NCBI GenBank assembly: GCA_900316795.1 | Contig: ONEF01000011.1 | Coordinates: 1 to 64,000 of the forward strand | Length of the DNA stretch: 64,000 nt | Source of the DNA: an uncultured Bacteroidales bacterium | GTDB taxonomy: Bacteria > Bacteroidota > Bacteroidia > Bacteroidales > UBA932 | Reading direction: 5' to 3' | Shown here: one piece after another, positions 11,401-36,242 of the stretch | Numbering within the stretch: position 1 is the first letter of the stretch | Layout of the letters: each line of letters starts with the position of its first letter | The notes under the pieces: generated by a model | Database searches by the model: none | What the model was told of the DNA's origin: nothing | What the model saw: the letters and a program-made list of their open reading frames with translations, nothing else | Position numbers and translations under genes: made by a program

Positions 11401-11433
11401 CAAATTTAACTATCTTTGTTCTATTATGGCAAA
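11401..11433 (-). promoter_or_regulatory. glsA promoter, crossing the rpoN start
   Basis: On the minus strand: TTTG (11430-11433), a 21-base spacer, TAAATTTG (11401-11408). The -33 element lies inside the first codons of rpoN, so glsA and rpoN transcription must compete. Confidence 0.5.
11411..11418 (+). promoter_or_regulatory. rpoN -7 box, nearly leaderless
   Basis: TATCTTTG ends only 7 bases before the rpoN ATG at 11426. The transcript start would fall 1-4 bases before, or at, the start codon, giving an mRNA with almost no leader. No convincing -33 box is visible. Confidence 0.55.
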
Positions 11434-12862
11434 AGAAAATACCAAATCGGGTTTGGGTATCGGTCAGACTGTCATACAGACTCAGACGCTTACTCCTATC
11501 CAGATCCAGACCATAAAACTCCTGGAGCTTCCCTATCTGGAACTGGAGCAGAAGATTCAGAAAGAGATAGAGGAGAATCCTGTCTTGGAGGATCCTGTTG
11601 AGGAGGAGAACGAGGAGACTGGTCAGGAGAGGAAAAAGCTCTCTTTGTCAGAAGTGAAGGACGACAACATTCCTTCCTACAAGTTGTATGTGAACAACCG
11701 TGGCCGGGACGAAAAGCCCCAATACAATACTTTCTCCGTAAAGGAAAGCCTTTATCAGTCTTTGCTCAGTCAACTGGGGCTGAGGAGGATAGACCAAAGA
11801 CGCCGCACCTTGGCTTCTTTCATTGTCGGAAGTATGGACTCCTCTGGCTATCTGACAAGGCCTTTGGAATCTTTGGTCAACGATGTCTATCTGCGCCTGG
11901 GGATTGAGACGGATGAGAAGGAGCTTGAAGATATCCTTGTCAACGATATCCAGCAGCTTGATCCTGTAGGGGTGGGGGCCAGGAATACCAGAGAGTGCCT
12001 TCTGATTCAGCTCAAGGCCAAGGAGAACCGGACTCCTGCCGTGGAACACGCCCAGCAGATCCTTCAAGGTTATTATGAGGAATTTACCAGAAAGCATTTT
12101 GAGAAGATAATGTCCAAGCTCTCCATCACGGAAGATGAGGTCAAAGACGCCTATGATGTTATCCGCAAGCTGAACCTTCATCCTGGAGGGCAGGTAGATG
12201 ACTCCTACACAGACCAGACGATGCAGATCGTGCCTGACTTTCTGCTTGAGAATGAGGACGGGAACCTGGTTGTCACCCTTCCTAAGTTCAACATACCTAA
12301 GATCAAGGTAAGCAAGGATTACGAAAAATACATGGAGAAGAAGCCGGGCAGTACCAAGGCCGAGAAAGAGGCTTCAAGTTTTGTAAAGACCAAGTATGAC
12401 AGCGCCAAGTGGTTTCTCGAGGCCATCAACCGCCGCCAGGATACCATGCAACGTACCATGGATGCCATAGTCAACTTCCAGAAAGAGTATTTTCTGGACG
12501 GGGACGATACCAAGCTCAAGCCTATGGTACTGAGGAATATTGCGGAAATCACCGGACTGGACATCTCTACGGTATCCAGGGTTGTCAGCAGCAAATATGT
12601 CCAGACCCCGTTCGGGATCTATCCTCTCAAGCACTTTTTCTCTGAAGGTATGGTAAACGGCTCCGGAGAAGAGGTTTCCACCAGGGAAATCAAGAAAATA
12701 CTCAAGGACAGCGTGGACAACGAGGACAAGTCCCAGCCACTTACAGATGAGGAGCTTGTGGATCTTCTTACCAAGAAAGGCTACCAGATATCGCGGAGGA
12801 CCATAGCCAAGTACCGCAGCCAGCTGGATATTCCTATAGCCAGAATGAGAAGGGAGATATGA
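11426..12862 (+). CDS. rpoN: RNA polymerase sigma-54 factor
   Basis: A 478-residue alternative sigma factor that recognises -24/-12 promoters and needs an AAA+ activator. All regions are present: the Gln/Leu-rich N-terminal activator region (residues 10-50, 'LTPIQIQTIKLLELP'), an acidic region II, the core-binding domain, and a C-terminal DNA-binding domain ending in the RpoN box ('SRRTIAKYRSQLDIP', near residue 455). It overlaps the next gene by 4 bases (ATGA). A consensus -24/-12 site lies in the same window at 34904-34919. No sigma-54 activator gene is seen in this window. Confidence 0.96.
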   Translation: MAKENTKSGLGIGQTVIQTQTLTPIQIQTIKLLELPYLELEQKIQKEIEENPVLEDPVEEENEETGQERKKLSLSEVKDDNIPSYKLYVNNRGRDEKPQYNTFSVKESLYQSLLSQLGLRRIDQRRRTLASFIVGSMDSSGYLTRPLESLVNDVYLRLGIETDEKELEDILVNDIQQLDPVGVGARNTRECLLIQLKAKENRTPAVEHAQQILQGYYEEFTRKHFEKIMSKLSITEDEVKDAYDVIRKLNLHPGGQVDDSYTDQTMQIVPDFLLENEDGNLVVTLPKFNIPKIKVSKDYEKYMEKKPGSTKAEKEASSFVKTKYDSAKWFLEAINRRQDTMQRTMDAIVNFQKEYFLDGDDTKLKPMVLRNIAEITGLDISTVSRVVSSKYVQTPFGIYPLKHFFSEGMVNGSGEEVSTREIKKILKDSVDNEDKSQPLTDEELVDLLTKKGYQISRRTIAKYRSQLDIPIARMRREI

Positions 12863-34105: not shown

Positions 34106-34792
34106 ATGAAGAAGTTATTTATCGTTGCATCATTGTGTTCTCTCATCCTCTTCTCCTGCAAGGGCGGGGAAAAGACTGAGGAGAACAACCAGCAGCCGGC
34201 TTCCGGGCAGCAGGCTGAACCAGAAAAGAAGCAGCCGGAACTGGCTTTCAATCCGGATTCCCTTGGCACGGAGCCTCAGTTTGACATCGTGACAACTATG
34301 GGAACCATCCGCGTGAAACTCTATGAAGACACTCCAAAGCACAAGAAGAACTTCATCCGTCTGGCTTCCATAAAGTACTATGATGGCATCACCTTCCACC
34401 GCGTGATCCGCAATTTCATGATCCAGACCGGAGACCCTTATACCAGAGACTATCCGGACCGTGCAGACGTGTTCGGTACAGGCGGCCCTGGTTACACCGT
34501 TCCTGCAGAAATCAAGGGTGAGGACGGAAAGCCCCTGCACCTGCACAAAAAGGGAGCTTTGGCCGCAGCCAGGAAGGGAGACCGCGCCAATCCTGAAAAG
34601 GCATCTTCCGGCAGCCAGTTCTACATAGTCCACGATGCAGATGCCTGCAAACAGCTGGACGGAGACTATACTGTATTTGGAGAAACCGTCAGCGGACTGG
34701 ATGTAGTGGACAAGATAGCTTCAGTTGCAACTGGAGCCAAGGATCGTCCGACAACAGATATCAAAATTATCTCAGTTCTTCCGGTAAAATAA
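34106..34792 (+). CDS. Cyclophilin-type peptidyl-prolyl isomerase lipoprotein
   Basis: A 228-residue lipoprotein (lipobox LFSC near residue 17) with a Glu/Gln-rich spacer (about 20-50) and a cyclophilin domain (about 65-228). Catalytic landmarks are 'YDGITFHRVIRNFMIQTGD' (about 112-130), 'SSGSQFYIV' near 175 and 'LDGDYTVFGETVSG' near 195. It should speed proline isomerisation in folding proteins of the envelope. An earlier ATG (34046) is possible, but its 20 extra residues would precede the signal peptide. Confidence 0.9.
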   Translation: MKKLFIVASLCSLILFSCKGGEKTEENNQQPASGQQAEPEKKQPELAFNPDSLGTEPQFDIVTTMGTIRVKLYEDTPKHKKNFIRLASIKYYDGITFHRVIRNFMIQTGDPYTRDYPDRADVFGTGGPGYTVPAEIKGEDGKPLHLHKKGALAAARKGDRANPEKASSGSQFYIVHDADACKQLDGDYTVFGETVSGLDVVDKIASVATGAKDRPTTDIKIISVLPVK

Positions 34793-34903
34793 AACGAGAG
34801 CTTGTTTGAAAAAAAAACTTCAAAAATTAAATCGCTGAGGAACAAGGCTTTAAGTAAAAATTGCAAAAATTTTCAAAAAATTTTTCACTCTGGCACCAAA
34901 TTG

Positions 34904-34919
34904 TGGCACGGGCTTTGCA
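34904..34919 (+). promoter_or_regulatory. Sigma-54 (-24/-12) promoter
   Basis: TGGCACG-GGCT-TTGCA matches the sigma-54 consensus TGGCACG-N4-TTGCA in full. A second, incomplete TGGCAC lies 13 bases upstream (34891-34896). The matching sigma factor gene rpoN is at 11426. The predicted start is near 34930. The first feature downstream is a terminator, not a gene. Confidence 0.75.
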
Positions 34920-34929
34920 ATATCTAAAA

Positions 34930-34994
34930 GCGTAGTTTTTTCATAGGTTAATTTTTAGGTTTGAGAAATGGGTTGGCGGTCGCCAGCCCTTTTT
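34930..34994 (+). ncRNA. Candidate sigma-54-dependent small RNA
   Basis: This is the stretch between the -24/-12 site and the terminator at 34970-34994, about 65 nt. It has no start codon with a useful frame. The 5' part is U-rich and unstructured; the 3' part is a GC-rich hairpin followed by U. That is the usual shape of a trans-acting small RNA. The call is inferred from the flanking signals only. Confidence 0.45.
34970..34994 (+). terminator. Strong intrinsic terminator
   Basis: GGGTTGGC-GGTC-GCCAGCCC followed by five T. It stands 200 bases after the cyclophilin gene and about 40 after the predicted sigma-54 start. Confidence 0.88.
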
Positions 34995-35004
34995 CATTTT
35001 ATAT

Positions 35005-35035
35005 TTTGCAGATTTGAGCAAAAGAATTATCTTTG
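35005..35035 (+). promoter_or_regulatory. rpsP-rimM promoter
   Basis: TTTG (35005-35008), a 19-base spacer and TATCTTTG (35028-35035), a full Bacteroidota consensus. The predicted start is at about 35040. Confidence 0.75.
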
Positions 35036-35039
35036 CAGC

Positions 35040-35058
35040 CCTTCCTCGGGCAGGAAGG
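35040..35058 (+). promoter_or_regulatory. 5'-terminal hairpin of the rpsP mRNA
   Basis: CCTTCCT-CGGGC-AGGAAGG, a perfect 7-bp hairpin that begins at the predicted transcript start. It may stabilise the mRNA or serve feedback control by a ribosomal protein. Confidence 0.5.
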
Positions 35059-35098
35059 ACAAGTTTTATTACTAACAAACAATTAAAAACTCACAGTT

Positions 35099-35674
35099 AT
35101 GTCTGTAAAAATTCGTTTATCACGTCACGGAAAGAAGAATTATGCATTCTTCCACATTTTGGCTACTGATGTCAGGGCTCCTCGTGATAGCCGTTTTATT
35201 GAGCTTTTGGGTTCATACGACCCTAACACCAATCCGGCTACTATAGTCCTGAATGTTGACAGAGCAGTTTACTGGCTCCAGAATGGTGCCCAGCCAACTA
35301 TCACCGCAAGAAGAATCCTCTCCTACAAGGGTGCGCTTCTTAAGAAGCACCTTGCTGAGGGTGTAAGAAAGGGTGCTCTCACTCAGGAGCAGGCAGACGC
35401 CAAGTTCAATGCTTGGGTTGCCGAGAAAGAAGCCAAGGTTGAGAAGAAGAAGGAGAACCTCAAGGTTTCCAAGGCTGATGCCAAGAGAGCAGCTGTTGAG
35501 GCAGAGAGCAAGGTTAACGCTGCACGCGCAGAGGAGCTTGCAAAGAAGAAGGCTGAGGCTGAGAAGGCTGCTGAAGAGGCTCGCAAGGCCGCTGAGGCTG
35601 AGGCAAAGGCTGCTGAGGAAGCTGCCGCTCCAGCTGAAGAGGCTGCTGCCGAGGAAGCTCCAAAGGCTGAATAA
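35099..35674 (+). CDS. rpsP: 30S ribosomal protein S16, long form
   Basis: A 191-residue S16. The first ~80 residues are the conserved core ('[20 protein letters not shown]' start, '[17 protein letters not shown]' near 31), which binds 16S rRNA. The rest is an Ala/Glu/Lys-rich tail with repeated 'KAAEEA' units, more than doubling the bacterial norm. Such tails occur in other Bacteroidota S16 proteins. It is followed by rimM, as in many genomes, but trmD and rplS are not adjacent. Confidence 0.95.
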
Positions 35675-35708: not shown

Positions 35709-36242
35709 ATGAACATTACCTCCTGCGCCCAGATAGCCAAGACTTACGGCAAAGATGGAGAGATTCTCCTCAGAGTTGAGTCTGACCGCTTTTCTGAAAT
35801 GCTTGAGGAATGTGAGGAAGAGGGAAAAGAACTTGAGGAACCGGTATTCGTCTATTTTGACGGGTTGCCGGTTCCTTTTTTTATAAGTTCCGCCAAACAC
35901 CGTTCCAACAACGCATGGGTTGTAACGTTCTCTACGGTCAGGGACCTCTCACATGCAGAGGAGATAGTTGGCAGGGACCTTTATCTGGAAGCCTCGGAAG
36001 CAGATGTGTTCAACGATCTTGACCTGCTGGTGGGCTTTGCGGTTGTGGATGAAAACGGAAAGCCGGCCGGGATTGTCTCAAAGGTTGTCGAGTATCCCAG
36101 CAACATCTGCCTGGAGATAAGACGCCAATCCGGCGCAAGTGATGAAGAAGTCCTGCTTCCGTTCCATGAAGACCTGGTCCTTTCCTTTGACCAGGAGAAC
36201 AAAATAATCGCGATGAAAATACCGGGTGGCCTGATTTCCTGA
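35709..36242 (+). CDS. rimM: 16S rRNA processing protein RimM
   Basis: A 177-residue ribosome-maturation factor for the 30S head, which works with S19. The N-terminal RimM barrel covers about 5-90 ('IAKTYGKDGEILLRV', 'FVYFDGLPVPFFI') and the PRC-barrel about 100-172 ('GFAVVDENGKPAGIVSKV', 'LLPFHEDLV'). It lies 34 bases after rpsP in the same transcript and converges on the AraC-type gene with no gap (36242/36243). Confidence 0.93.
   Translation: MNITSCAQIAKTYGKDGEILLRVESDRFSEMLEECEEEGKELEEPVFVYFDGLPVPFFISSAKHRSNNAWVVTFSTVRDLSHAEEIVGRDLYLEASEADVFNDLDLLVGFAVVDENGKPAGIVSKVVEYPSNICLEIRRQSGASDEEVLLPFHEDLVLSFDQENKIIAMKIPGGLIS

Follow-up and report, generated by a model that had tools for sequence, protein, structure and literature searches.

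Small regulatory RNAs (sRNAs) under sigma-54 promoters are exemplified by the Qrr RNAs of Vibrio, of which Qrr1 adjoins its activator gene luxO, and by GlmY of enterobacteria. Within the Bacteroidota, the closest counterparts of the locus described here are the FopS RNAs (RF04319) of Bacteroides. In B. thetaiotaomicron, FopS RNAs are induced by bile salts and base-pair, through their 5′ part, with susC mRNAs around the start of translation; FopS genes are reported to have primary-sigma promoters, and one of the 14 FopS RNAs of this organism is derived from a 3′ untranslated region (3′ UTR) (PMC11697453). The primary-sigma consensus is TTTG / TAnnTTTG (PMC7366714). In Flavobacterium psychrophilum, the sigma-54 regulon comprises chaperones, proteases, envelope genes and a putative RNA, Rfp36, and is linked to protein quality control and envelope stress (PMC9723704). 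The present analysis concerns an intergenic element in a 64,000-nucleotide stretch of DNA (the window) from an uncultured Bacteroidales bacterium (UBA932); the window belongs to contig 4 of a draft genome (2.32 Mb, 93% complete). A preliminary description had proposed that this element is a candidate sRNA gene with a sigma-54 promoter, an interpretation that the conservation of promoter and core now supports. It also stated that such RNAs are little known in the Bacteroidota, which is true, although the listing of Rfp36 (PMC9723704) means that they are not unheard-of.

The element is probably a stand-alone, trans-acting sRNA gene that depends on sigma-54, resembles FopS and carries a 5′ seed pairing with start codons. 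It is composed of the following parts.

34904..34919, plus strand: sigma-54 promoter, -24 TGGCACG / -12 TTGCA (TGGCACGGGCTTTGCA); exact match, conserved in relatives
34930..34994, plus strand: predicted ~65-nt non-coding transcript, FopS-like, type A; start placed from the -12 C at 34918
34936..34961, plus strand: conserved core TTTTTTCATAGGTTAATTTTTAGGTT; (nearly) invariant alignment columns, exact-core pattern in 35/39 genus genomes
34936..34951, plus strand: putative start-codon-pairing seed, complement of TTAACCTATGAAAAAA
34970..34994, plus strand: intrinsic terminator, a hairpin of eight pairs (34970-34989) and a U-tract, ending at ~34994

The promoter element TGGCACG-N4-TTGCA at 34904-34919 matches the full -24/-12 consensus with no mismatches, is the sole exact match within the window and lies, as first described, between genes (a peptidyl-prolyl isomerase (PPIase) gene ends at 34792 and rpsP starts at 35099). 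It shows the GG/GC spacing of 12 bases in TGGCACR-N4-TTGCW. A looser pattern, TGGCACN5TTGCW, is matched three times in the 2.32-Mb genome and not at all in a reversed control; the second of these sites (L002), at the start of a purN-like frame, is probably a chance match. A consensus-like sigma-54 site is also present on the minus strand at 1501-1516 of L003 (G000:C21:53428-53443), ~100 bases upstream of an Hsp20 gene. Where the search patterns left positions free, the extended consensus is nevertheless kept, with R after TGGCAC at 81/82 and W after the -12 element at 82/82 nonredundant sites, a set that, like the 190-site, 185-site terminator, 153-site neighbour and uvrD sets below, includes loci L115-L231 from a scan requiring the sigma-54 box (the 190-site, 185-site and uvrD neighbour-motif sets also include L270-L289, chosen mostly for missing that box). 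Promoter classes were assigned throughout by consensus match only, and a box scoring 8/10 arises by chance in 0.35% of mononucleotide-shuffled 45-nt upstream stretches. A chance match between genes, from which no RNA is made, might be proposed from the several two-mismatch matches expected in any such window (~5 by chance with up to two mismatches, of which two were observed), but the conservation of promoter, core and terminator across many genera makes this extremely improbable. The phased A-tracts, which according to the preliminary description could bend the DNA as sigma-54 promoters need, find no support as a required element, the A-rich gap being mostly absent in relatives in which the box abuts a stop codon; at L007, L010, L011, L014, L024 and L075, only 4-26 nt separate the -24 box from the preceding stop codon.

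The strong terminator reported to end at 34994 was borne out, the hairpin at 34970-34989 being followed by a T-tract. When folded from 34930, the 66-nt transcript gives z = -2.98 and adopts the FopS-type layout of a single-stranded 5′ seed followed by a terminator hairpin, with the minimum-energy fold also weakly pairing part of the core. A strict terminator follows 126/185 core sites, as against 21/555 shuffles. The core varies among relatives by single-base insertions, so that a coding role is disfavoured. RNAalifold predicted no base pair on a diverse alignment, and the model R1, built from 21 sigma-54-type transcripts, is therefore sequence-only. At the gathering cut-off, Rfam recognises three tRNAs only in the whole window.

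Conservation within the genus is extensive. A BLAST search with 34780-35110 against 41 genomes, its own included, had matches in 26 of them; the block shared most often (~34898-34975) spans promoter and transcript. A promoter-blind search with the exact core located it in 35/39 genus genomes, 28 of them with two copies and seven with one, and found nothing in the reversed control. The copies fall into two types, separated by the base after CATAG and clearly distinct only within the genus: type A (CATAGGTTA), to which the window copy belongs, and type B (CATAGTTTAAG), represented in the same genome at G000:C3:70393-70477 on the minus strand. Once identical stretches are merged, so that counts refer to distinct loci and not to genomes (the sequences of close relatives are not independent), TGGCAC and TTG occupy the -24/-12 places in 35/35 type A loci, and 26/29 type B loci are sigma-54-like (TGGCAC, TGGCAT, TGGAAC, TGGCAG and one GGGAAC). 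The three exceptions, L044, L093 and L107, have TAnnTTTG or a near match in place of the sigma-54 box. Conservation of the -24/-12 pair with its spacing, which the preliminary description had named as a check, is strongly positive throughout the genus and in a large part of the family. At one locus (L020 / L031, G023:C14), a diverged second copy (TGGCATGAACTTTGC) with a degenerate core and its own terminal hairpin stands on the opposite strand, back to back with the type A copy.

The predicted RNA is no orphan, as its sequence resembles the FopS RNAs of Bacteroides; it is best termed FopS-like, not FopS. RF04319 matches 34932-34998 with 25.5 bits (E 0.031 for 151 bases; cut-off 56) and BTnc231 (RF04180) matches with 20.1 bits (cut-off 80.4). 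The type B copy of the same genome scores 36.5 bits against RF04319 and gave the only row for that genome in a genome scan, in which 42/61 genomes match at E<=0.1, including 27/37 of the genus; six lie above the cut-off, none of them in the genus. The model R1 in turn recovers 5/6 of the cut-off-passing FopS loci (E 3e-6 to 2e-3 in 139 kb), missing L036. In other families of the order, L038 and L041 carry tandem FopS-like copies 150-190 bases apart, by eye without sigma-54 boxes.

At the level of the family, the promoter-blind search places the core at 146 sites in 72/119 genomes and 17/25 genera, and promoter and core together at 102 sites in 55 genomes and 15 genera. These places were tallied by hand; the promoter-blind 102/146 is the fair count of sigma-54-type cores and is a lower bound, near-consensus boxes having escaped the pattern (L047, the second site of L261, L282, L287 and L288). 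It becomes 102/115 once genera g213 and g223 are set aside. Each core-bearing genome of the family has 1-5 copies. In genus g219, the genomes G458, G474, G488 and G521 each have two copies on opposite strands, ~5.2 kb apart; L159 likewise has opposite-strand copies ~5.2 kb apart; one follows a PPIase gene and the other rimM, and their promoters are nearly identical.

TAnnTTTG is found in only a minority of the copies in relatives. Among the selected exceptions that were viewed, TAnnTTTG boxes are present at L260, L284, L285, L286, L270, L273, L274 and L277 and, farther upstream, at L278-L281. In g223, L271, L272, L275 and L276 have neither promoter type and L273 combines a TGGCAG..TTGC box with a TAnnTTTG box. 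In genome G164 (1.5 Mb, 99% complete; L258, L286), one copy has a primary-sigma box and the other a sigma-54 box. No pattern of co-loss of rpoN with the sigma-54 box was seen in the family, where rpoN is detected in 111/119 genomes and all 25 genera. Type B copies often lie behind uvrD/pcrA (PF13361 and PF21196 for L107 and L260, a C-terminal motif for the others), although the type B copy of the genome studied here does not. With the promoter-requiring scan left out, loci with a recognised uvrD tail comprise 25 of sigma-54 type and four others; judging by these sequences, a promoter swap at a single locus would leave just such a picture, with boxes of both kinds behind the same gene.

These observations bear on whether a genuine RNA might be transcribed with the primary sigma factor and match sigma-54 by accident. 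The primary-sigma promoters reported for FopS genes (PMC11697453) would favour this, as would a near -7 box, TATAATTG, beside the sigma-54-like box of the genome's own type B copy. However, TAnnTTTG was not found near 34930 in the window (best match 4/6), where the sigma-54 box is full and conserved. At strict cut-offs, moreover, 168 of 190 sites are sigma-54 only, against eight that are primary-sigma only, one with both and 13 with neither, many of these sites coming from the sigma-54-requiring scan. Transcription by the primary sigma factor is accordingly regarded as improbable.

The genes surrounding the element, and rpoN in the same window, are as follows.

34106..34792, plus strand: cyclophilin-type PPIase, upstream gene; PF00160 on 34112-34789, lipoprotein-like start by eye
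35005..35035, plus strand: primary-sigma promoter of rpsP (TTTG 35005-35008, N19, TATCTTTG 35028-35035), read by eye against the TTTG/TAnnTTTG consensus
35099..35674, plus strand: rpsP (S16), PF00886; outside the sRNA unit
35709..36242: rimM, downstream of rpsP
11426..12862, plus strand: rpoN (sigma-54); PF00309, PF04963 and PF04552; ~22 kb from the sRNA

The closeness of upstream genes raises the question of whether the block is merely the 3′ UTR and terminator of the gene before it, the RNA being cut from read-through of the PPIase gene (or uvrD or rimM) and the -24/-12 match having no role. Of 153 sigma-54-type sites, some of them taken from the promoter-requiring scan, 117 have a nearest upstream gene in the same orientation, and the end of this gene precedes the box by a median of 22 nt (type A) or 8 nt (type B); type A copies often lie directly behind a PPIase-type gene, as judged by sequence motif, and the 3′-UTR origin of one B. 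thetaiotaomicron FopS RNA (PMC11697453) offers a parallel. Against this, box and spacing are kept while the upstream gene changes, the nearest upstream gene is in the opposite orientation in 35/153 sites, and several copies without a sigma-54 box have TAnnTTTG at the matching place, which fits a gene that cannot do without a promoter of its own. An origin as a 3′ UTR is therefore considered unlikely. A cis-acting leader or attenuator of rpsP, suggested by the position of the element just upstream of that gene in the window and in some relatives, is largely refuted by where the element lies at other loci and is most improbable: the terminator and the separate rpsP promoter (placed after the terminator by the preliminary description and so read here at 35005-35035) intervene, the element lies ~1.5 kb from the start of rpsP in G014, other genes precede it elsewhere and type B is often found behind uvrD. 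Given these positions, the element does not qualify as the leader of rpsP.

Given a stand-alone sigma-54-dependent gene, the genome also holds the machinery that such a promoter would use. The presence of rpoN in the window, noted at the outset, is confirmed by matches to all three Sigma54 Pfam domains. In 22 family genomes picked by eye, a core copy lies on the contig that carries rpoN, 9.9-28.2 kb from it, which probably reflects inherited gene order and is no proof of a link. The search for an AAA+ activator elsewhere in the genome, also proposed initially, yielded three sigma-54 activators: a REC-AAA protein with no helix-turn-helix (HTH) match, an AAA-HTH protein and a REC-AAA-HTH protein. 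Their genes are on contigs C8, C11 and C15, and sRNA copies A and B are on C4 and C3. By eye, the AAA-HTH gene adjoins an LptE-like gene and the REC-AAA-HTH gene is followed by a kinase-like gene. The NtrC-type response regulator at L264 1081-2253 (G000:C8:113033 region) ends directly after the AAA+ lid, and Pfam found no DNA-binding domain in it. The genome carries a single RRM_1 protein.

Outside the family, a scan of public genomes found at least 117 stretches with promoter/core sites, the taxa among the matches listed including Candidatus Cryptobacteroides, Candidatus Coprenecus, a Marinilabiliaceae strain and many other Bacteroidales. Sigma-54-type sites of Bacteroidales bacterium CF and Foetidibacter luteolus are also among the matches listed; a minority of the 122 sites listed lack the rest of the core and are chance-like (e.g. 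Acinetobacter, Desulfopila, Polaromonas). In evenly drawn samples, the exact core occurs in 16/393 genomes of the order and promoter plus core in 2/295 of the class, its own included, counts by which the feature is centred on its own family and part of the Bacteroidales. In three Chitinophagia records, L119, L142 (Foetidibacter luteolus) and L143, TTTTTCATAGGATATTGGATT and a hairpin follow a sigma-54 site, and these loci may form an outgroup branch; L119 and L142 match the model R1 with E 9e-5 and 0.009.

In the mechanism that we propose, RNA polymerase with sigma-54 would transcribe 34930-34994 from 34904-34919 once an AAA+ activator is switched on, and the hairpin at the end of the RNA would stop transcription, perhaps that of the upstream PPIase gene as well. 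The 5′ part (UUUUUUCAUAGGUUAA...UUUAGGUU) would be the seed, its complement containing CCUAUGAAAAAA. Such a seed could mask the start codons of mRNAs that open with AUG-AAA-AAA, a beginning characteristic of exported proteins, and prevent translation in the way that FopS of Bacteroides acts on susC; the single RRM protein of the genome possibly acts as partner of the sRNA. For 30 of the 34 genome-wide matches to the seed complement a locus was available, two being the sRNA genes themselves; of the remaining 28 loci, nine have an ATG opening a frame of >=85 codons near the frame start, and seven of these nine are signal- or membrane-like by eye. The likely setting would be envelope or protein-folding stress, stress being the best guess for the signal because an Hsp20 gene follows the only other sigma-54 site of the genome that is convincing and because of the composition of the F. 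psychrophilum sigma-54 regulon.

A broader model, put forward tentatively and considered doubtful as a whole, is that sigma-54 plays in this Bacteroidales family the role of sigma-E in E. coli, envelope or folding stress switching on a set of sRNAs that cover start codons and thereby halt the synthesis of exported proteins. The sRNA genes would then be portable units that lack an upstream activator site and follow directly on unrelated genes, the activator would possibly be the REC-AAA protein without a DNA-binding domain (G000:C8:113033), and loci would have been swapped repeatedly between sigma-54 and the primary sigma factor.

Several results count against a sigma-54-dependent, start-codon-pairing FopS-like gene. 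Concerning targets, the evidence is weak: matches to the seed complement are as frequent in the reversed control as in the genome (34 vs 34). Duplex energies favour exported-like starts only slightly (73 genes, with the 26 loci pre-picked by seed match set aside; p = 0.22, and 4/100 shuffled seeds are equal), and the best exported-like target candidate in the window is not rare, 111/5116 stretches being as good. Concerning the promoter, the sigma-54 pattern is matched by 0/6 cores of g213 and 0/25 of g223, which together provide 31/44 non-matching cores, and rpoN is present in 12/14 core-bearing genomes of these genera. Conversely, G164 has a sigma-54-type copy and yet no rpoN was detected in it. 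A shared upstream activator site or dyad was not found in -200..-2 of the 82 nonredundant loci, in which some k-mers exceed shuffles, each in a minority of loci and partly within homologous coding sequence. Because upstream genes end close to the box and no common motif was found, an activator working without an upstream site is a reasonable guess, for which FlgR and a chlamydial activator are precedents. The likeness to FopS, finally, is weak alone: the window RNA and 37/37 genus genomes fall under the Rfam cut-off, the window copy is missing from the RF04319 genome-scan rows and, of ten further loci compared with Rfam, only L014 matches FopS at E<=0.05 (41.4 bits).

If the proposed gene is real, FopS-like RNAs would extend beyond Bacteroides, and sRNAs related to one another, sometimes occupying one and the same locus, would be under two unlike sigma factors, one firing by default and the other needing an ATP-driven activator. 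The finding offers a clear first test of the role of sigma-54 in this gut and rumen group, on which the literature searches made here listed no sRNA study.

Compared with known systems, the RNA shares with FopS a length of ~65-70 nt, a U-rich 5′ part (UUUUUCAURG...AGGUUA) followed by a terminator hairpin, several paralogs per genome (two in this one) and an RRM protein in the genome, RbpB being the partner in Bacteroides (PMC11697453). It differs in its host genus, which is not Bacteroides, in copy number (two found here, compared with the 12-15 reported in Bacteroides; PMC11697453) and in having a sigma-54 box where Bacteroides FopS has a primary-sigma promoter. BTnc231 has the UUUUUUCAUAG 5′ part in common but is longer (154 model positions). 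GibS shares the FopS seed R1 and already departs from FopS in promoter type, the FopS cluster itself being described as without strong sign of diversification (PMC11697453); the GibS promoter motif, PM2, is near-palindromic with -10/-30 boxes (PMC7366714), not -24/-12. Rfp36 of F. psychrophilum, likened here by description only, has been listed as a putative regulatory RNA of the Bacteroidota whose promoter is of the sigma-54 type (SM4) (PMC9723704). The arrangement here differs from that of Qrr1 and luxO in that activators and sRNA copies lie on separate contigs. Taken together, related RNAs appear, from their sequences and promoter boxes, to have come under two separate transcription systems, sigma-54 here and an ordinary promoter in Bacteroides FopS.
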